From Capsulimonas corticalis (lineage in GTDB: Bacteria; Armatimonadota; Armatimonadia; Armatimonadales; Capsulimonadaceae), in NCBI RefSeq assembly GCF_003574315.2, contig NZ_AP025739.1:1612001-1676000 (forward strand): 64,000 bases of DNA, read 5' to 3'. A program made the position numbers and the translations under genes. This document shows positions 30,658 through 39,316 of this stretch, one piece after another. Below the pieces are notes generated by a model. The model did not search any database, had not been told where the DNA came from, and saw only the letters and a list, made by a program, of their open reading frames with translations. Position 1 is the stretch's first letter; each line of letters opens with the position of its first letter.

Positions 30658-30687
30658 TTGGCGATGTGGGCGGTCATAGGGTAAACT
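30658..30687 (+). promoter_or_regulatory. Promoter of the BTAD regulator, probably leaderless
   Basis: TTGGCG (30658-30663), 18 bases, TAAACT (30682-30687). The start of transcription would fall at or next to the ATG at 30693, so the message may be leaderless. Confidence 0.45.
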
Positions 30688-30692
30688 ACCGT

Positions 30693-33600
30693 ATGGCGAC
30701 TGCGCAATCACACATTTGGCGTATCGAATTGTTCGGCGGTTTGCGCGCGCGTTCCGGGACTCAAACGATCGATCGGTTTCAAACCCAGAAGACAGCCGCG
30801 CTGCTCGCATACCTCGCGTTTTATCCCAATCGCCGTCACCTGCGCGAAGAACTGGTCGACCTCCTCTGGCCGGACGCCGAGTCCGAGGCGGGGCGTCACC
30901 GGCTCTCGCAGGCCCTGGTTTCCCTTCGCTCTCAGCTGGAGCCGGATGGCGTTCCCAAGAACAGCATTCTGCGCGCCGACCGCCAGACGGTCGGGCTGGA
31001 TACCTCGGTTGTCACGGATACCGCCGAGTTTGAGGCCGCGCTCTTTTCCTCCAAGAACCAGACCGGAGCGGAAGCCGCGGTCCGTCTTGAGCGGGCGGTG
31101 ACGCTCTACCAGGGCGACCTGCTTCCCGGGTACTACGAAGATTGGATCATCACCGAGCGCCAGCGGCTTCTGGATATGGCGACCGGCGCCAGCCGCCGAT
31201 TAGTGGCGCACTACGAAGAAATCAACCAGTTCGAGCGCGCCCTGGATTACGCTCGGCGCGGCCTGGAGATCGATCCCATTTCCGAGGATCTCCATGTCGA
31301 CTTGATCCGGGTGCTCGCCGCCAGCGGCCAGCGCGCGGCCGCGCAGCGGCACTTCCGTGAGATGGAGCGCATCCTGATCAAGGAACTGGACGAGCCGCCG
31401 AGCGCCGCGACCAAGGCCCTGGTCGAGCAGATCCTTCAGAACACCATGGCGGCTCCCCCCGCGCGTCCCGCATCCCGGGTGAAGGAAACGACGCTCCCGT
31501 CGCCGCTGACGCGGTTCTTTGGACGCGACGCGGAGATTGCCCAGGCCCAGAGTCTTCTGACCTCCGGCAAGGTGCGGCTGCTGACGCTGACCGGCATTGG
31601 CGGCGGCGGCAAAACTCGTCTTGCGGTGGAGATTGCCGGCCGCATCGCCGTCGACTTCTCCAGCGCCGTCTGGTTCGCGCCCCTGGCGGACCTCAGCGAC
31701 GCCCGTTCGATCCCCAGTGCGATCGCCGAGGCGCTGCGGCTGACGCCCTCGGCGGACACGCCGCCGCTGGACCTGATCGTCACCTCGCTTTCCGCGCAGC
31801 CCTCGCTTCTGGTTCTGGACAACCTCGAACACCTGGTGGAGGAAGCCGCGCCGATCGTCCGTGAGCTGCTGGCGCGCGCGCCGTCGCTGACGATCCTTGT
31901 CACCTCACGCCAGCGGCTGGGGCTGCAAGGCGAGCGCGAGATCTCCGTTCCCCCCCTGGAATCGCCCGTGGGCTCCTTCAAAACCAACGGCCGCGCGGTC
32001 AGCCCGGAACGATTGATGGAGATGGACGCGATCCAGCTGTTTGTCGATCGCGCCCAGGCCGTCCGCCCCGCCTTCAAAGTGACCGCGCAAAACGCCGCCG
32101 CCATCGCGCAGCTTTGCGAGCGCCTGGAAGGGATCCCGCTGGTCATCGAGCTTTGCGCCGCCTGGGCTCAGACTCTCACACCCGCGCAGATGCTGACCCA
32201 GCTGACGCGCCGTTTCGAGCTTCTGGTCAGCCGCAGCGTCGATATCGCGCCGCGCCACCAGAGCCTGCGCGCGGCGCTGGACTACAGCTACGTGCAGCTG
32301 CCCGAGAATTTGCAGCGCTTCTTCGGCCGGCTGTCCGTCTTTCGCGGCGGCTGGACATTGGAATCGGCGGAGGCCGTCGGCGGGTCGAGTTTTGCCGACA
32401 CAAGCTCTTATGTGATCCTGGAAGCCGTGACGACTCTGCGGGAGCGCTCCTTAATTCTGGCCGATGAGACCGAAGAGGGCGGCGCGTTCCGATATCGGAT
32501 GCTGGAGACGCTGCGCGAGTTCGCGGCGGAGCAAGTTCCGCCGGACGAACGCGAAGAGCTGCACCGCGCGCACGCCGAATATCTCATGGCTCTAGCGGAA
32601 GCGGCGGAGCCGGAGATCGCCGGCGGCGATCAGGCGCCGTGGCTGGAGCGTATGGAGGCCGAGCACGACAACTTCCGCGCGGCGATGCACTGGGCGCTGG
32701 AGAGCGAATCCGCGGAGATCGGCCTGCGCCTCGCCGGCGCGCTGGCGTACTTCTGGGAGGCGCGCGGGTATCTGGGCGAGGGGCAGGAGTGGCTCGAGAA
32801 GCTGCTGGCGCTGCCGCAGGCGACATCCGACTCGCTGCGCCGCGTGCGCGCGAATGCGCTCACCGGGCGCGGGTATCTCATGCGCAATCAAGGCGCGTCC
32901 GCCGGGATTGACGCCGTGATGGAGGAGGCCCTGCGCTTGTGGCGCGCGATCGGCGACGACCATGGCCTCGCCGTCACGCTGCAAGTGCTGGCGACCCTCG
33001 CCTATTCTCGGGAAGACTGCGACCTGGCCCGCGTGTATCTCGAAGAAGGCCTGGAGCTCTCCCGCAAGCTTGGCGACCCGATGCTGGTAGCCCAGGCGAT
33101 GCTCAATCTTGGGAATATCGCGCTGGAGCAGGCGGAGTTCCCGGAGGCGCTGGAGTTTTATTCCGACAGCCTGGAGATCTTCCGGGCCGCCAGAAACCGT
33201 GTCCGGATCGCGCATGTCCTCAACAACATGGGCCTCGTGGCGCGCTTTCAGGAGGATTATCCGAGGGCGTTCACGCTGCTCCAGGAATCGCTTGAGACCG
33301 GCATTGAGCTGACCGGCCGCGCCGCGAACGCCACCACCTTGCTCAATCTGGGAACGCTCTACCGGCTCGACGGCCAGTTCGCCCTTGCGCGCGCCACGCT
33401 ATCGGAAGCCGTGATGGTCGCGCAGGAAGTGGGCGAGCGCCGGCTTCTGGCGTATGTGATCAAAGAACTCGGCCACCTCGCGTGCGTCGAGCATAAGTTC
33501 AGTGAAAGCGTGCGCCTCCTCTCCATCTCGGAAAGCATGCGAAAAACGCTGGCCCTCTCCTTCAAGCCCGCCGACCCCGTCGAGCTAGAGCGCGACCTCG

Positions 33601-33719
33601 CCCTTGCCCGTGAAGCCCTCGGCGAAGCGGCGTTCAACGCCGCCTGGAGCGCCGGCGCGCGCCTCACCCTCGCCCAAGCGTTTGACGAGGCGCTCAAGCA
33701 GGCTCAATCTCCACAATAA
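30693..33719 (+). CDS. AfsR/SARP-like regulator (BTAD, NB-ARC, TPR)
   Basis: A 1008-residue cytoplasmic transcription factor. Residues 1-100 are an OmpR-like winged helix (IELFGGLRARSG, HLREELVDLLWPD) and 100-255 the BTAD helical domain. An NB-ARC ATPase follows, with Walker A GIGGGGKTRLA near residue 299, Walker B SLLVLDNLEHL and ILVTSRQRL. The C-terminal 350 residues are TPR repeats (LGNIALEQAEFPEALEFY, LLNLGTLYRLDGQFALAR). Such proteins act as ATP-gated switches that activate neighbouring operons, often secondary metabolism in actinomycetes; here a role in the upstream sugar operon is possible but unproven. An alternative ATG 27 bases upstream overlaps the promoter. Confidence 0.92.
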   Translation: MATAQSHIWRIELFGGLRARSGTQTIDRFQTQKTAALLAYLAFYPNRRHLREELVDLLWPDAESEAGRHRLSQALVSLRSQLEPDGVPKNSILRADRQTVGLDTSVVTDTAEFEAALFSSKNQTGAEAAVRLERAVTLYQGDLLPGYYEDWIITERQRLLDMATGASRRLVAHYEEINQFERALDYARRGLEIDPISEDLHVDLIRVLAASGQRAAAQRHFREMERILIKELDEPPSAATKALVEQILQNTMAAPPARPASRVKETTLPSPLTRFFGRDAEIAQAQSLLTSGKVRLLTLTGIGGGGKTRLAVEIAGRIAVDFSSAVWFAPLADLSDARSIPSAIAEALRLTPSADTPPLDLIVTSLSAQPSLLVLDNLEHLVEEAAPIVRELLARAPSLTILVTSRQRLGLQGEREISVPPLESPVGSFKTNGRAVSPERLMEMDAIQLFVDRAQAVRPAFKVTAQNAAAIAQLCERLEGIPLVIELCAAWAQTLTPAQMLTQLTRRFELLVSRSVDIAPRHQSLRAALDYSYVQLPENLQRFFGRLSVFRGGWTLESAEAVGGSSFADTSSYVILEAVTTLRERSLILADETEEGGAFRYRMLETLREFAAEQVPPDEREELHRAHAEYLMALAEAAEPEIAGGDQAPWLERMEAEHDNFRAAMHWALESESAEIGLRLAGALAYFWEARGYLGEGQEWLEKLLALPQATSDSLRRVRANALTGRGYLMRNQGASAGIDAVMEEALRLWRAIGDDHGLAVTLQVLATLAYSREDCDLARVYLEEGLELSRKLGDPMLVAQAMLNLGNIALEQAEFPEALEFYSDSLEIFRAARNRVRIAHVLNNMGLVARFQEDYPRAFTLLQESLETGIELTGRAANATTLLNLGTLYRLDGQFALARATLSEAVMVAQEVGERRLLAYVIKELGHLACVEHKFSESVRLLSISESMRKTLALSFKPADPVELERDLALAREALGEAAFNAAWSAGARLTLAQAFDEALKQAQSPQ

Positions 33720-33743: not shown

Positions 33744-33792
33744 AAAAACCTCAAGGACGCCTGCATTTCTGAGAAATCTTTGAGGTTTTTTT
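33744..33792 (+). terminator. Rho-independent terminator of the BTAD regulator
   Basis: AAAAACCTCAAG and CTTTGAGGTTTTTTT pair around a loop, ending in seven Ts. Strong intrinsic terminator. Confidence 0.8.
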
Positions 33793-33866
33793 GATCTCAA
33801 TTCCCTATAATAGCGCACGTTCTCTTTTTCAGGCGAATGAGACAATATTAGTATTAAAATAGGTCT

Positions 33867-34003: not shown

Positions 34004-34795
34004 ATGTCTCAGCAATCTCGTTTGCGCGGATTTACGCTCATTGAGCTGCTCGTCGTCATCGCCATCATCGCGATTCTCGCGGCGATCCTTTTCCCTGTCT
34101 TCGCCAAGGCTCGTGAGAAGGCACGGCAGATTAGTTGCGCCAGTAATATGCGCCAGATTGGTCTCGGCCTCGTTCAGTATGTTCAGGACTATGACGAGCG
34201 CATGGTGCTGCGCTCGAACGGTGATGGCGTGGCCTGGCCGCAATCGCTTCAGCCCTATATGAAGAGCCAGAATGTCTTCCAGTGCCCCTCCAATCCGCGA
34301 AAAGATCAGCCCATGTATAGTGATGACGGGAACACGATCGGACGAGCTTCATACGAGGCGAGCTTCCAGGGCGGAATTCAGGATTATCATCCCGACGCCA
34401 CTCCTCCGGAAGGAGCTATCTCCCTGGCCCAGTACTCCTCGCCGGCTCAATGCATTGTCGTGACCGAAACCACGGCGCGCTATTCAGACTTCAATGTGGA
34501 CGCGGGATGTCCCAGTGTTTGGTGTTACGACGCCGCACAGTATCCGACCTACAATGTCGGAACCGTATTTTCGGGGCATACCGGAATGTCCAACTATCTG
34601 TTCGCGGATGGTCATGTGAAGATCTACAAGCCACTTTTGACGATTGCCGTAGCCGATAACGGCGCCGGCAGCTCCACTCTTTGGCGTTATGACGGCCAAA
34701 CATTCGTTGACGGACAGGCAAGCACGCCTTATCCCGAGCCGACGCCCACCCGCGCCGCACAGCTGCTCACCTTCGCCGCAAGCCTTTACAAATAG
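34004..34795 (+). CDS. DUF1559 pilin-like protein, first of tandem array
   Basis: A 263-residue prepilin-like protein cut after Gly9 ([13 protein letters not shown]; mature Glu5 is residue 14). The helix is followed by [16 protein letters not shown] and [14 protein letters not shown], then a DUF1559 body with Cys pairs ([11 protein letters not shown]) and the HX9DG signature ([16 protein letters not shown]). GGGAG lies 8 bases before the ATG. Unlike the next three copies it lacks their shared promoter and leader and ends at its own terminator, so it is regulated separately. Confidence 0.92.
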
Positions 34796-35045: not shown

Positions 35046-35099
35046 TTTATATAAAACTGATCCATTTTTGACAATTCTTTGAGAGTCGGATAGTAGAAT
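35046..35099 (+). promoter_or_regulatory. 20-nt-spacer promoter, copy 1
   Basis: TTTATATAAAACTGA (35046-35060), TTGACA (35068-35073) with a second TTGA 11 bases later, then TAGAAT (35094-35099) after a 20-base spacer. The same order of elements recurs at 36304 and 37591, and partly at 38985. Confidence 0.6.
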
Positions 35100-35155
35100 G
35101 CATACCAATAGTGATTTCGTTCTTATCATCACTATTGAATTCCATTATCTCCTCT

Positions 35156-35208
35156 CGTCGCCACTGCTGCCGACGTCGTTCTTTTGTTACCGAAAGGAAA
35201 ACGTCATG
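35156..35208 (+). promoter_or_regulatory. Conserved pilin leader with two exclusive hairpins, copy 1
   Basis: CGTCG (35156-35160) can pair with CGACG (35171-35175). The overlapping GACGT (35172-35176) can instead pair with ACGTC (35201-35205), directly before the ATG, placing the AAAGGA ribosome site in the loop. The two pairings exclude each other. The sequence is almost the same at 36409 and 37697. Confidence 0.5.
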
Positions 35209-36006
35209 TCACAGCGCAAATCTCGTGGTTTTACTCTTATTGAATTGCTCGTCGTCATCGCCATCATAGCGATTCTCGCGGCGATCCTTTTCCCTGTTTT
35301 CGCCAAGGCCCGTGAAAAGGCCCGGCAGAGCACCTGCGCCAGCAATATGAAGCAGATGGGGCTGGGCATTCTTCAGTACGTCCAGGATTACGACGAGAAG
35401 ATGATCCCGCGCACGGTTGTTTATGACGGCCTGGATCACGTCTGGACGCAGCTGATGCAGCCATACATCAAGAACCAGAATATCTTCCAGTGCCCCTCCA
35501 ACCCGCGCAAAGACCAATATTTCTGCTGCCAGGCGGCGGGATCCGTTGTCGCGCACGCCTCTTACGCCGCGAGCTTCCAGGGCGGCATCCAGGATGTCAA
35601 TACTGGCGATCCGGGCTTTTCGTATCCCACTTACGATTCTCCGGCGCAGGTCATTGATATTCTCGAATCGACGGCGAAGTATGCGGACTTCAATGTGGAC
35701 GCCGGCGCGGACACGATTTTCAGCTATTACACCACGGACCCTAACCTCGATTATGGCTGTCTGTTCTCCGGCCACAGCGGCATGTCGAATTTCCTATTCG
35801 TTGACGGCCACGTCAAGGCGTACCATCCGCTGCAAACATTGGATAAGACGGACGGCGGCGGCAACGATGTGAACCTGTGGCGTTTTGACAACGACACATT
35901 CATCCACCACCAGCAATTGGACGCCGCTGCTGGGATCGGCCCCGCCGAGCCGACTCCGACCCGCGCTTACTCGGTCCTGTCGTATGCCGAAAACCAGTTC
36001 AAATAA
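35206..36006 (+). CDS. DUF1559 pilin-like protein, second of tandem array
   Basis: A 266-residue prepilin-like protein ([17 protein letters not shown]; cleavage after Gly8). Mid-region Cys residues ([16 protein letters not shown]), the conserved [14 protein letters not shown] segment shared with the first copy, and the HX9DG signature ([16 protein letters not shown]) are present. Start at 35206 is set by AAAGGA about 8 bases upstream and by the match with its paralogs; the upstream in-frame ATG lies in the leader. It is followed by a near-perfect terminator. Confidence 0.93.
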
Positions 36007-36054
36007 GTCGTGATCTTACGCCGTAGAAGGCGGGTCGAACTTATTACCGGGATC

Positions 36055-36092
36055 AGCCCTCCAAGTCTAAATTTAGACTTGGAGGGCTTTTT
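36055..36092 (+). terminator. Long palindromic terminator
   Basis: AGCCCTCCAAGTCTAAA and its exact complement form a 17-bp stem with no real loop, followed by TTTTTC. Strong intrinsic terminator, possibly active in both directions. Confidence 0.85.
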
Positions 36093-36303
36093 CTTTGCGA
36101 ATGTCTGCATGAAAACACGAAATATATTATTTCAATAATTTAGACCATAATTATGCCTGTTTAACATTTTCGTACAATAAGTAGACCGGGTAATTGTCCC
36201 AAAACCATCATTAAAGGCATCATTGCTAATTATATAAAATGCCGTTTATATTAGAAAATCATTGATAAACATCGATAAATTAACTTTATGCCCCTCTGTT
36301 ATT

Positions 36304-36356
36304 TTTATATAAAACTCACGATTTTTGATATTTGTTTGATTTTATACTGGTACAAT
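36304..36356 (+). promoter_or_regulatory. 20-nt-spacer promoter, copy 2
   Basis: TTTATATAAAACT (36304-36316), TTGATA (36325-36330) with a second TTGA 11 bases on, and TACAAT (36351-36356) after 20 bases. The AT-rich stretch 36093-36303 before it holds no gene. Confidence 0.6.
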
Positions 36357-36408
36357 ATTGCCGCCAACGATGAACCAAAAATCATCGTTGGACTTAATAG
36401 TCTTCGTT

Positions 36409-36461
36409 CGTCGCCATTGCTGCCGACGTCGTTCTTTTGTCACCGAAAGGAAAGCGTCATG
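36409..36461 (+). promoter_or_regulatory. Conserved pilin leader, copy 2
   Basis: CGTCG (36409-36413) against CGACG (36424-36428), or GACGT (36425-36429) against GCGTC (36454-36458), where one pair becomes G.U. Ribosome site AAAGGA lies in the second loop. Confidence 0.5.
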
Positions 36462-37256
36462 TCACAGCATAAGTCTCGTGGTTTCACTTTGATCGAATTG
36501 CTCGTTGTGATCGCAATAATCGCGATTCTCGCGGCGATTCTCTTTCCGGTCTTCGCCAAAGCACGTGAGAAGGCGCGGCAAATTGCCTGCGTCTCGAATC
36601 TCAAGCAAATCGGCCTCGCTCTTGTCCAGTACACTCAGGATTACGACGAGACGCTGCCGCCGCGGTCCAACGGCATTGGAAACGCTTGCTTCCTTCTCAA
36701 TGCTTATGTCAAGAGCAAAGACATGTGGAAGTGTCCTTCCAATCCTCGCGGATATTCACTTCAGCATTACTATCCCGTTGATGATGTCGCGGACGGCAAC
36801 GACCTCTTCCCGGTAGGATACGCGGCAAACCAGAACCGAGCAAACGGGGTTGGAGCGCCTTTCGGCGATATTGGCGCCCCCACGCCCGATGGATCCCCGT
36901 CTCCCGTCGCCATTGCCGTGCTTACCGCCCCGGCCTCCACGATCGCCTGGGTCGAGAGCACAGCCTATACGAGCGACTATAACGTGACGCTGGATTCCGG
37001 CGGTTTCTTCCGCCAGCCCAGCAGCACCCAGTATTACGGTCACCTATACGCGGGGCACACCGGGCAGAGCAACTTCCTGTTCTGCGACGGTCATGTCAAG
37101 TCCATGAATCCGTTAAACACCATCAACGAGTGCGATGCGGCGTCCTGTACTCCGACACGCACAAACCTGTGGGACAACGACAACTCTCCGCTCAAGGGCA
37201 ACGACTTCACTCAGGCCCAGTTGAACCTGCAATACTCGGTTTCGCAGCCCAATTAG
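36459..37256 (+). CDS. DUF1559 pilin-like protein, third of tandem array
   Basis: A 265-residue prepilin-like protein ([17 protein letters not shown]; cleavage after Gly8) with the motif [20 protein letters not shown], a proline/glycine-rich middle ([18 protein letters not shown]) and the HX9DG signature ([16 protein letters not shown]). It is the close paralog of the next gene; the last 60 residues are identical. The middle insert of about eight residues distinguishes it. Confidence 0.93.
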
Positions 37257-37264
37257 TGTATTTC

Positions 37265-37355
37265 CGGCGCTATGCGATAGAAAGCATAGCGCCAGAGAGT
37301 TAAAGATAAGGCAATTCGCGGACGGCGGAGCGACTTTTTCCGCCGTCCATTTTCG
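37265..37355 (+). terminator. Two stem-loops after the third tandem pilin
   Basis: GGCGCTATGC/GCATAGCGCC (about 37266-37294, no T-run) is followed by GGACGGCGGA (37320-37329) with TCCGCCGTCC (37339-37348) and ATTTTCG. The first resembles a 3'-protecting hairpin, the second a terminator. Confidence 0.65.
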
Positions 37356-37590
37356 TTTGACTTCTTTGTCTCGCATCGATAGACGTATAGGCAATCATAC
37401 AAGCATATTATTCATAAGGATATGGTCAGTATCGCTGAAACCATACCGTTCACGATTGATCGTATTTTTGTACAATAAGTATTCATTCATTAGGTCTTGA
37501 TGAGCGATTTGTGAGACATACTATGATCGCGAATAACGCAGATAATCGTCAATAAATATCAATATTTCGGTATGCTCTTTTGCTTAAGAT

Positions 37591-37644
37591 TTTATATAAA
37601 ACTGATATTATTTTGACGCTTGTTTGATAATCAGCCGGTACAAT
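37591..37644 (+). promoter_or_regulatory. 20-nt-spacer promoter, copy 3
   Basis: TTTATATAAAACTGA (37591-37605), TTGACG (37613-37618) with TTGA 11 bases on, TACAAT (37639-37644) after 20 bases. The region 37356-37590 before it holds no gene. Confidence 0.6.
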
Positions 37645-37696
37645 ACAGCCAACAATGATGAACCAAACATCATTGTTGAACTCAATAATCCTCGTT

Positions 37697-37749
37697 CGTC
37701 GCCATTGCTGCCGACGTCGTTCTCTTGTTACCGAAAGGAAAACGTCATG
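37697..37749 (+). promoter_or_regulatory. Conserved pilin leader, copy 3
   Basis: CGTCG (37697-37701) against CGACG (37712-37716), or GACGT (37713-37717) against ACGTC (37742-37746), immediately before the ATG. Confidence 0.5.
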
Positions 37750-38520
37750 TCACAGCGCAAATCTCGTGGTTTTACTCTTATTGAATTGCTCGTCGTTATC
37801 GCCATCATAGCGATTCTCGCCGCCATTCTCTTCCCAGTCTTCGCGAAAGCTCGTGAGAAAGCTCGCGCCATCTCTTGCGTATCCAATCTGAAGCAGATCG
37901 GTATTGCGCTCGTCCAGTACACCCAGGACTATGACGAGACGCTTCCGCCTCGCTCCAACGACATTGGAACCGCGTGCTTCTTGCTGACCTCCTATATGAA
38001 GAGCAAGGATGTTTGGAAGTGTCCTTCGAACCCACGTGGTTACTCCCTTCAGCATTACTTCCCCATTGATGATGTCGCGGATCCCAACGACCTCTTCCCC
38101 GTGGGCTATGCGGCTAACCAGAACCGCGCCAACGGTGTCGGCGCTCCGTTTGGTGATGTTGTCTCCCAGGTTGGCCTTGCGCAGCTCGTTGCTCCCGCCT
38201 CGACAATTGCCTGGGTTGAGAGCACTTCTTACACGAGCGATTACAACGTGACGCTGGATTCGGGCGGCTTCTTCCGCCAACCCAGCAGCACCCAGTATTA
38301 CGGTCACTTGTACGCCGGGCACGTCGGCCAGAGCAACTTCCTGTTCTGCGACGGTCATGTCAAGTCCATGAATCCGTTAAACACCATCAATGAGTGCGAT
38401 GCGGCGTCCTGTACTCCGACACGCACAAACCTGTGGGACAACGACAACTCTCCGCTCAAGGGCAACGACTTCACTCAGGCCCAGTTGAACCTGCAATACT
38501 CGGTTTCGCAGCCCAACTAA
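37747..38520 (+). CDS. DUF1559 pilin-like protein, fourth of tandem array
   Basis: A 257-residue prepilin-like protein ([17 protein letters not shown]). Its N-terminus and leader match the second tandem copy, while the middle and C-terminus match the third ([45 protein letters not shown]). This mosaic pattern suggests recombination among the copies. AAAGGA lies 8 bases before the ATG. It is followed by a terminator-like hairpin and a small lipoprotein gene. Confidence 0.93.
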
Positions 38521-38580
38521 TCTATGATCATGGGGTGAGGAATTTACCGATCTCATAGCGCTGAGTGTATCTCATAGAGA

Positions 38581-38617
38581 GGACGCCGGGAAGAATCCTT
38601 TCCGGCGTCCGTTTTTA
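38581..38617 (+). terminator. Terminator-like stem-loop after the fourth pilin
   Basis: GGACGCCGG and CCGGCGTCC around a 12-base loop, then GTTTTTAT. Confidence 0.75.
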
Positions 38618-38698
38618 TGACTTAGCAATGCCTGGACGGCGAAATGTCCGTCTCAATGATAACGATGTCTATGGTACTTCGACAAGGATGACTACTTC

Positions 38699-38869
38699 GT
38701 GAAAAAGCTTCTTCCCTTTCTTTTCGCAGCCGTGATGGCGGCCCTGCTGGCTGGATGCAGCCAAGAGCAAAAACCGCCGCCGCCGCCGCCAGGGCTGATC
38801 ATACCGCGCACTCCGGCCTCCGCATCAAACAGTACTCCAAATCAGAGCGGCGCGAAATCCAGTAACTAA
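38699..38869 (+). CDS. Small proline-rich lipoprotein
   Basis: A 56-residue protein starting at GTG with AAGGA about 11 bases upstream. MKKLLPFLFAAVMAALLAGC is a textbook lipoprotein signal (Cys20); the mature part is short, with six consecutive prolines and a Ser/Asn-rich end. It follows the last tandem pilin by 178 bp. A similar small lipoprotein follows the pilin-like gene at 53049-53909, so the pairing looks meaningful. Function unknown. Confidence 0.7.
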   Translation: MKKLLPFLFAAVMAALLAGCSQEQKPPPPPPGLIIPRTPASASNSTPNQSGAKSSN

Positions 38870-38984
38870 ATATCCAGCAGTTGAAAACGGTATCGGCGTA
38901 TTGCGTTCGTAATGCGCCATGCCCGTCACTCTCAAAAAGCTGTAAATATCCTGAAAATAACTTCGAGCGTCAGATCAAAATTTT

Positions 38985-39016
38985 TTGAACGTTTCTTGAA
39001 GCCGCATCAGTACAAT
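38985..39016 (+). promoter_or_regulatory. 20-nt-spacer promoter, copy 4 (upstream of decayed pilin)
   Basis: TTGAAC (38985-38990), second TTGA 11 bases on, TACAAT (39011-39016) after 20 bases. The upstream TTTATATAAAACT block is missing. Confidence 0.5.
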
Positions 39017-39038
39017 AAGGACAGTCTCGAACGAATAC

Positions 39039-39091
39039 TGTCGCCATTGCCGCCGACGCCGTTTTTCCCAGCTGTAAAGGAATGCGTCATG
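39039..39091 (+). promoter_or_regulatory. Conserved pilin leader, copy 4
   Basis: TGTCG (39039-39043) against CGACG (39054-39058), or GACGC (39055-39059) against GCGTC (39084-39088) next to the ATG. The second stem has changed on both strands relative to copies 1 and 3 (T-A to C-G), so pairing is kept. Confidence 0.45.
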
Positions 39092-39316
39092 ACCGGCCCA
39101 CTCAAACCTCGCCCTTTTGTTGTGATCGAACTGCCTCGACTGGACCGCTCCGGCGGTGATCCTCAGTACGACGCCGTTCCTTGTCTGCGCCGCAGCCGGC
39201 GCTGTGAACCGTCGCGGCTGCGACGGCTGCCTGCTCCCTGCGGGGCGGCGGAGTCGCCCCGGCCGCGGATCCGTTTGCTGCCGGGAATGTCCCCCACGCG
39301 TCGCTCAGGACGATGA
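39089..39316 (+). pseudogene. Decayed DUF1559 pilin-like gene
   Basis: From the ATG at 39089 the frame reads MTGPLKPRPFVVIELPRLDR, which lines up with [19 protein letters not shown] but loses the hydrophobic helix. The +1 frame has a hydrophobic stretch (PAVILSTTPFLVCAAAGAV), suggesting a frameshift. The DUF1559 body and HX9DG motif are absent. The promoter and leader are those of the pilin array, so this is best read as a degenerate fifth copy. Confidence 0.6.

Follow-up and report, generated by a model that had tools for sequence, protein, structure and literature searches.

Candidate SARP-type regulator-pilin module with predicted start-occluding leaders in Capsulimonas corticalis

Introduction

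Streptomyces antibiotic regulatory proteins (SARPs) and the related AfsR regulators have been described chiefly in Streptomyces, where they activate antibiotic clusters. Sections of two papers describe their sites as direct repeats of heptamers separated by at least 4 nt, classically arranged as 11-bp units and usually overlapping the −35 region (PMC5930380, PMC10972967). Here, we describe an array of DUF1559 pilin genes in Capsulimonas corticalis that lies directly downstream of a 1,017-amino-acid AfsR/SARP-like gene. The locus was analyzed within a window of 64,000 nt (G000:C1:1612001-1676000) taken from the single-contig, 7.65-Mb genome (G000); coordinates below are those of the window unless stated otherwise, and all features described in it are on the forward strand. 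The regulator also lies directly upstream of the array in the congener, the metagenome-assembled genome Capsulimonas sp. RYN_270 (G002), the one other Capsulimonas genome compared. Four leaders of the array, c1 to c4 (35156, 36409, 37697, and 39039, with ATG codons at 35206, 36459, 37747, and 39089), had been proposed in a first-pass annotation to fold into two mutually exclusive hairpins, an upstream stem (A) and a downstream stem (B), around the ribosome site.

The leaders are real and conserved. Their best explanation is a SARP-type regulator-pilin module, the mRNAs of which would occlude their translation starts, rather than a two-state switch. We give moderate credence to the full reading, in which regulator-operator-pilin modules carry leaders that occlude the start and the array adds a 5′-terminal stem with compensated pairs. 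The identity, spacing, and rarity of the promoter, the neighboring regulator in both genomes, the 4 of 11 compensated pairs of the 5′ stem, and the predicted occlusion of the starts can be read from the sequence itself. G000 contained at least 152 DUF1559 matches in its 7.65 Mb (336 candidates, 150 scored), and if the reading is correct, some of this large expansion would gain a function through regulator-operator-pilin modules, which would also form a natural set for studying the evolution of SARP specificity. Among 5.39 million open-literature papers, none combined the terms SARP, AfsR, and "type IV pili" and one combined DUF1559 with pilin, in a search that did not extend to other wordings or to subscription journals.

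Leaders outside the array are referred to by locus. L091 is the congener orthologue of the array leaders, and L097 is that of c4; together with c1 to c4, they make up the six close leaders. L065 (the same gene as L015) is a divergent G000 leader in front of a DUF1559 pilin, and L336 is its orthologue in the congener.

Promoter and regulator of the pilin array

All units of the module shared the promoter TTTGA-N6-YTTGA-N11-TANANT. It was found at 35067 to 35099 (c1), 36324 to 36356 (c2), 37612 to 37644 (c3), and 38984 to 39016 (c4), and a pattern search placed a further copy (TTTGA-N6-TTTGA-N11-TATAAT) at 33779 to 33811, upstream of a DUF1559 pilin gene (34004 to 34795) that has the promoter and lacks the leader block. 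These five, together with one copy at L065, were the only 6 matches in the 7.65 Mb of G000. The congener had 5 matches, located at L091, L097, and L336, at one site upstream of L091, and at a contig end. Five further genomes, from four genera of the same family, had no match, and the reversed pattern gave none in any of the seven genomes. When up to one mismatch was allowed, G000 had 13 such places, of which the 7 added ones were not before pilins as far as the sequence was read. Within the window, the 6/11 spacing was the only repeated one. The congener carries a TTTGA promoter (L320, 11832 to 11864) at the position corresponding to the 34004 promoter, without a pilin of its own downstream.

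Read as heptamers (TTTGANN), the two repeats are separated by a 4-nt spacer and have an 11-bp period, with the second heptamer lying 9 bp from the −10 sequence TANANT. Direct repeats with this period are present in the −35 region, with five letters fixed in the TTTGA module, and the arrangement of two direct repeats with an 11-bp period and, as heptamers, a 4-nt spacer resembles that of Streptomyces SARP promoters.

The regulator gene (30666 to 33719) was assigned from domain and structure matches and a syntenic congener copy, the product of which is 86% identical. The predicted protein has a putative winged-helix-turn-helix-like N terminus followed by BTAD, putative NB-ARC-like, and TPR regions, and the last three recall the architecture of Streptomyces AfsR/SARP proteins; BTAD scored 68.2 bits against a cut-off of 22.1, and TPR_12 scored 98 bits, above its cut-off. 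Structure comparison returned AfsR entries 8k60, 8hvr, and 8jke (E of ∼3e−4), behind one engineered TPR protein, and the AfsR chains aligned to residues 14 to 298. The protein also matched NF053617 (best stretch, 12 to 452), and its top NCBIfam match was the TPR protein HaaT, at 121 bits versus a cut-off of 1125. Orthology with Streptomyces AfsR was rejected, as the score against the AfsR equivalog was 94.6 bits, far below the cut-off of 1430. By its sequence matches, the regulator is a relative of AfsR and not AfsR itself. Unlike the Streptomyces systems, its putative target is a DUF1559 pilin array, and the heptamers vary by module.

Pilin-adjacent AfsR-like paralogues

If this array is under SARP control, other pilin-adjacent AfsR-like genes should carry repeats of their own in the same geometry, which was set beforehand. 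G000 gave 19 BTAD matches, 16 of them above 50 bits, and the downstream side was read for all 16 (about 1.3 to 2.4 kb each for 13 of them). A same-strand DUF1559 pilin was the next gene downstream in four cases, namely, the window gene and the genes designated 752493, 4768120, and 180249. No G000 paralogue is closer to the window regulator than the latter three. No pilin was seen in the downstream stretches read for the other 12. At the preset geometry, the 752493 pilin carried TTTGGGA/TTTGGGA and the 180249 pilin TGAGAGA/TGAGAGA, both matching at 7 of 7 positions. Four further AfsR-like genes were read in the congener, with a pilin after two of them; there, the TGAGAGA repeats were again 7/7, and the counterpart of the 4768120 repeats was 4/7.

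The geometry was also scored across pilins at large. By N-terminal motif, 149 pilin-type genes were collected in G000 (114 loci plus the window), with those having <150 nt upstream or a repeated first 90 nt dropped. Outside the TTTGA module, 144 pilins (L237 included) yielded 5 with repeats of at least 6/7 at the preset geometry, compared with a shuffle mean of 0.19 and a maximum of 2 in 100 sets. With a strict −10 sequence, repeats of at least 5/7 were present in 10/149 pilins and in none of the 90 controls. Period 11 stood out at distances of 7 to 11 (3 to 5 pilins), where other periods reached at most 2.

From these data, we tentatively propose, as a possibility rather than an expectation, that paralogous AfsR-like STAND regulators exist of which several are wired to adjacent pilins by private repeats that diverged with the regulator; several pilin mRNAs would share a block antisense to the start, and different signals would lead to different pilins. 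Two further arrangements were observed among the AfsR-like genes. In L377 (321 to 353; G000:C1:3468620-3468652), an AfsR-like gene is followed by GTACACG-N4-GTACACG-N9-TATGAT and then by an open reading frame (ORF) that is not pilin-like, and in L292, the 4768120 regulator is followed by two tandem pilin units with long, almost identical leaders.

The leader block and its distribution

Direct reading of the sequence confirmed the layout that the first-pass annotation had given for all four leaders. CGTCG-N10-CGACG starts at 35156, 36409, and 37697, and c4 has TGTCG at 39039, so that the outer pair of its upstream stem is T.G. The overlapping GACGT or GACGC is complementary to the five bases directly 5′ of the ATG and encloses AAAGGA, and the last pair of the downstream stem runs T-A, T.G, T-A, and C-G from c1 to c4, as claimed. 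Stem A thus occupies 35156 to 35175 (c1), 36409 to 36428 (c2), 37697 to 37716 (c3), and 39039 to 39058 (c4). Stem B, together with a helix over the Shine-Dalgarno sequence (anti-SD helix), extends to the ATG at 35172 to 35205 (c1; SD, AAAGGA, at 35193 to 35198) and 36425 to 36458 (c2; SD, 36446 to 36451). The corresponding stretch of c3 is 37713 to 37746 (SD, 37734 to 37739), with an anti-SD helix weakened by one T-to-C change, and stem B of c4, with the outer C-G pair, spans 39055 to 39088 (SD, 39076 to 39081). Their description as pilin-array leaders held for c1 to c3, which precede DUF1559 pilins bearing the N-methylation signal (35206 to 36006, 36459 to 37256, and 37747 to 38520), and failed for c4, which precedes a 75-amino-acid ORF that is not a recognizable pilin.

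The 18-nt core TCGCCANTGCYGCCGACG was matched exactly four times in the 7.65 Mb of G000, each time within the array. At up to three mismatches, G000 gave 284 forward and 263 reverse matches, where the reversed pattern gave 108 and 112, and the window gave 10 against a shuffle mean of 1.13. A block of 27 nt was 96% identical when c4 was compared with L097 and when c1 or c3 was compared with L091. In the same pairs, identity was 66 to 76% over the preceding 80 nt and 78 to 90% over the first 60 coding bases.

A sequence-only model (R1) matched L091 and L097 in the congener and L065 in G000 (E value, 0.0098). A structured model (R2), for which L065 was included in the alignment, brought in a single further true member, L336 in the congener (E value, 0.03); its matches with E values of 0.19 to 0.49 were left out of the member set, and a match at G002:C116 (E value, 0.0014) was dropped since it lies within a long open frame with no ATG in place. 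Beyond the two Capsulimonas genomes, a search of 19 genomes from the order with R1 gave only two weak matches at an E value of ≤0.02, G004 C57 (E value, 0.018) and G008 C205 (E value, 0.008), which were rejected as coding-like, with L235 lying in a 344-codon open frame. At an E value of ≤1, R1 had matches in every genome of the family, some of which were inspected. A loose-pattern scan of genome contigs returned at least 119 stretches, of which 2 had an SD and ATG and one was real, the congener itself. No Rfam family reached its gathering score between 33000 and 41000.

Related letters recurred in the TGAGAGA module, the leaders of which (L237 and L385) contain GTCG-N10-CGAC; by eye, the L385 block GTCGCCAATGCTGTCGAC shares 16 of 18 letters with c3. 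This word is not rare, being found in one further pilin leader and in 2/90 control leaders. In L237 and L385, stem B is impossible, with no partner for bases −5 to −1, the probability of stem A is 0.00, and the block is predicted to pair with the start region instead. The block would be better described as antisense to the start than as stem A.

Stems A and B

The proposed translational switch, in which stems A and B exchange and thereby open or close the ribosome site, was not supported. Both stems can be drawn in all six close leaders, and stem A letters recur in the second regulator-pilin module. However, in the larger alignment that had been suggested as a check, none of the five pairs of stem A changed on both sides (7 and 8 leaders), with no excess over shuffles. 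For stem B, the lack of covariation that the annotation had named as refuting was nearly reached as well: one of its five pairs was compensated, but this is a single event common to c4 and L097, and in the 8-leader alignment, in which three rows were gapped at one pair, the covariation score was reached by 160/500 shuffles. For stem B plus the anti-SD helix in 7 leaders, the number of paired cells was reached by 1/500 shuffles, the covariation score by 6/500, and the number of compensated pairs by 264/500. A pentamer at −36 to −32 pairing with bases −5 to −1 was present in 1/90 non-pilin and 4/145 other pilin leaders, which makes stem B an ∼2% event. Because c1 to c4 are paralogous, it counts as one event rather than four.

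Stem A had a predicted probability of 0.00 for the four pairs tested in c1 to c4, and forcing A rather than B cost 6.9 (c1), 4.5 (c2), 3.1 (c3), 1.6 (c4), 1.8 (L091), and 5.1 (L097) kcal/mol; in L065, where another register was used for both stems, A was better than B by 1.0 kcal/mol. With A forced in silico, the SD was still paired at 0.90 (c1), 0.92 (c2), 0.75 (c3), 0.78 (c4), 0.97 (L091), 0.69 (L097), and 0.55 (L065), since A coexists with helices such as UUCUUUUG/CGAAAGGA. Stem A thus brings no release of the ribosome site in these predictions. On 7 leaders, RNAalifold selected stem B together with the anti-SD helix and pairing to codons 3 to 4 rather than stem A; its covariation term was +0.68, which is a penalty. 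Among the divergent homologues, the register of stem A was broken in two and stem B was lost in two; neither stem was in register in L336, and stem A letters without stem B in L237 and L385 indicate that A and B are not a linked pair. Given these points, a two-state switch is very unlikely, and stem A may be transient and cotranscriptional at most.

Two other pairings were considered. A stem of L065 itself (UCGAU/AUCGA), which resembled a rescue of stem B, was dropped because its orthologue L336 has no such pair. Helix C, formed with codons 3 to 4 (GCUG/CAGC, or, in c4 and L097, GCCG/CGGC with a shift of one base), was drawn by both RNAfold and RNAalifold but proves little, as both arms consist of conserved letters in c1 to c3, L091, and L065. 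Single-sequence folds of c1 to c4 were little or no better than those of dinucleotide shuffles (z of −1.73, −1.50, −0.36, and +1.05).

These unremarkable z scores, the single covariation event of stem B, and the confinement of the exact block to four tandem copies would all fit the view that leader similarity reflects recent duplication only, with no RNA-level function and with pairing incidental to GC-rich repeated words. We consider that view unlikely. The 27-nt block is kept in the congener at an identity above that of its flanks, and L065, L336, L237, and L385 also have related blocks upstream of the SD.

Start-site occlusion

Occlusion of the start site was assessed by ranking pilin leaders by pairing of the SD and the bases before the AUG. 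To the 149 pilin-type genes, c4, L091, and L097 were added (152), and 2 without a recognizable SD were dropped, leaving 150 ranked leaders. L091, c1, and c2 ranked 1, 2, and 3, followed by c4 (10), L097 (11), c3 (33), and L015/L065 (53). At 37°C, the predicted probability of an unpaired SD was 0.05 for c1, 0.06 for c2, 0.21 for c3, 0.29 for c4, 0.00 for L091, 0.30 for L097, and 0.41 for L065. The 141 background leaders (L015 and L237 included) had a median of 0.43, with the lower quartile at 0.30. Values for L336, L237, and L385 were 0.35, 0.07, and 0.22, respectively. Start-site occlusion in the array leaders is therefore plausible on these predictions. In having the SD and pre-AUG bases paired, the leaders would resemble 5′ untranslated region hairpins that occlude start sites, from which they differ in that no ligand, small RNA, or protein is assigned and no Rfam family was reached.

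Parts of PMC10586365 define fourU thermometers by a U run facing the SD. The Capsulimonas leaders share this likeness, with UUCUUUUG opposite CGAAAGGA in c1, c2, and L091, which raised the option of a fourU-like RNA thermometer whose U-rich strand melts off the SD upon warming. Between 10 and 45°C, however, predicted SD opening was nearly flat in the U-run leaders (0.01 to 0.07 in c1, 0.00 to 0.10 in c2, and 0.00 to 0.01 in L091), as it was in c3 (0.21 to 0.22) and L065 (0.40 to 0.42). A moderate rise was predicted for c4 (0.15 to 0.35) and L097 (0.05 to 0.37), exceeding the change in the median for the other pilin leaders (0.40 to 0.45). No melting was predicted where the U run is present, and a thermometer of this type is very unlikely overall; the SD of c4 and L097 may open with temperature.

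An upstream ORF encoding an attenuator peptide was also weighed. The block has an RNY pattern, the changes between L065 and L336 are, by eye, silent in one frame, and one other frame has upstream starts in c1 to c3. The frame with silent changes nevertheless lacks a start codon upstream of the block in 7/8 leaders, and the frame relative to the ATG varies among copies, which leaves an attenuator peptide barely credible.

A putative 5′-terminal stem-loop

According to part of PMC3997798, mRNA can be stabilized by hairpins located at its 5′ end or close to it. An inverted repeat was identified 5 to 7 nt after the −10 box in c1, c2, c3, and L091, and its arms differ among copies with complementarity kept. 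It could form a 5′-terminal stem-loop of 10 bp in c1 (35106 to 35137), 10 bp in c2 (36364 to 36391), and 11 bp in c3 (37650 to 37678). Across the 4 sequences, 4/11 pairs had changed on both sides, 88.6% of cells paired, and the covariation score was reached by 10/500 shuffles. On this basis, we rank the 5′-terminal stem as the better-supported candidate RNA stem, ahead of A and B. Like the stabilizing stem-loops of ompA, papA, and aprE covered in that part of PMC3997798, it would be separated from the predicted 5′ end by a few bases; in Capsulimonas, the start site is predicted and an effect on mRNA stability is presumed. In c4, a 6-bp inverted repeat (39020 to 39042) overlaps an arm of stem A and, by eye, is absent in the congener.

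The same repeat could instead be a DNA operator for a dimeric repressor rather than an RNA stem. Its position at the expected start site and its invariant TGA/TCA core suit an operator, but the outer positions covary on both arms from copy to copy, which the fixed base preference of a protein does not require, and we regard an operator as doubtful. Hairpins of at least 8 perfect bp were found in 22/149 pilin leaders (4.6 expected from shuffles) and in 9/90 non-pilin leaders, and a pilin-specific enrichment of 5′ hairpins was not supported.

Integrated reading of the module

In the proposed mechanism, each of the four leaders would form the 5′ end of a transcription unit, and these units would belong to a single regulon. 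The AfsR/SARP-like activator (30666 to 33719) would bind the two TTTGANN repeats and recruit RNA polymerase, so that transcription starts shortly downstream. The c1 to c3 pilin mRNAs would open with the 10- to 11-bp stem-loop, possibly shielding the 5′ end, followed by the conserved ∼27-nt block, the 3′ half of which is antisense to the start region. With the SD and the surroundings of the AUG mostly paired, translation could be damped or could await a factor, and stem A would be transient at most.

Several observations weigh against this reading. The NB-ARC (22.2 bits) and Trans_reg_C (20.9 bits; residues 40 to 96) matches of the regulator fell under their Pfam cut-offs of 23.5 and 26.2, respectively. 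Module heptamers matched each other at 4 to 6 of 7 positions (6 in c1, c2, L065, L091, and L336; 5 in the 34004 unit, c3, and c4; and 4 in L097), and the repeats of the 4768120 pilin were poor (TGTTCGA/TTTTGGA, 5/7; second copy, 4/7). At a threshold of at least 5/7, the same 144 pilins also gave 5, which is not distinctive (shuffle mean, 1.83; maximum, 8); with a looser −10 sequence (TANNNT), repeats of at least 6/7 were present in 7/142 other pilins and 1/90 controls; and period 8 at distance 6 reached 4 pilins, the highest other count in the table. Pilins at L269, L307, L254, and L257, for which no near AfsR-like gene was listed, carry 6/7 or 7/7 repeats with an 11-bp period (CTTCATG, GTTAAGG, [GC]TTCATC, and CTTAA[CT]C), and thus other OmpR-type regulators may use such repeats. 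Occlusion is a prediction and is weak in L065 and L336, both of which, by eye, also lack the 5′ stem. The number of compensated pairs in that stem was reached by 39/500 shuffles in a test on 4 sequences, and the stem slid by +3 still paired 81%, owing to its repetitive arms. Leader hairpins also occur in front of non-pilin genes and are not pilin specific.

Other features of the array

The c4 ORF (39089 to 39316) encodes 75 amino acids in G000 and 76 in the congener (L321) and had no Pfam or NCBIfam match at an E value of ≤1. It is Arg rich, with what looks by eye like a decayed pilin N terminus (KPRPFVVIEL), and has retained the pilin leader and promoter. Comparison with the congener copy gave 13 silent and 37 non-silent codons, with an indel ignored. 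Between pilin 3 and c4, a small lipoprotein-like ORF of 56 amino acids (38699 to 38869) gave a weak LPAM_1 match. By eye, the last ∼300 bases of the genes for pilins 2 and 3 are near-identical while their middles differ, a pattern that looks like gene conversion.

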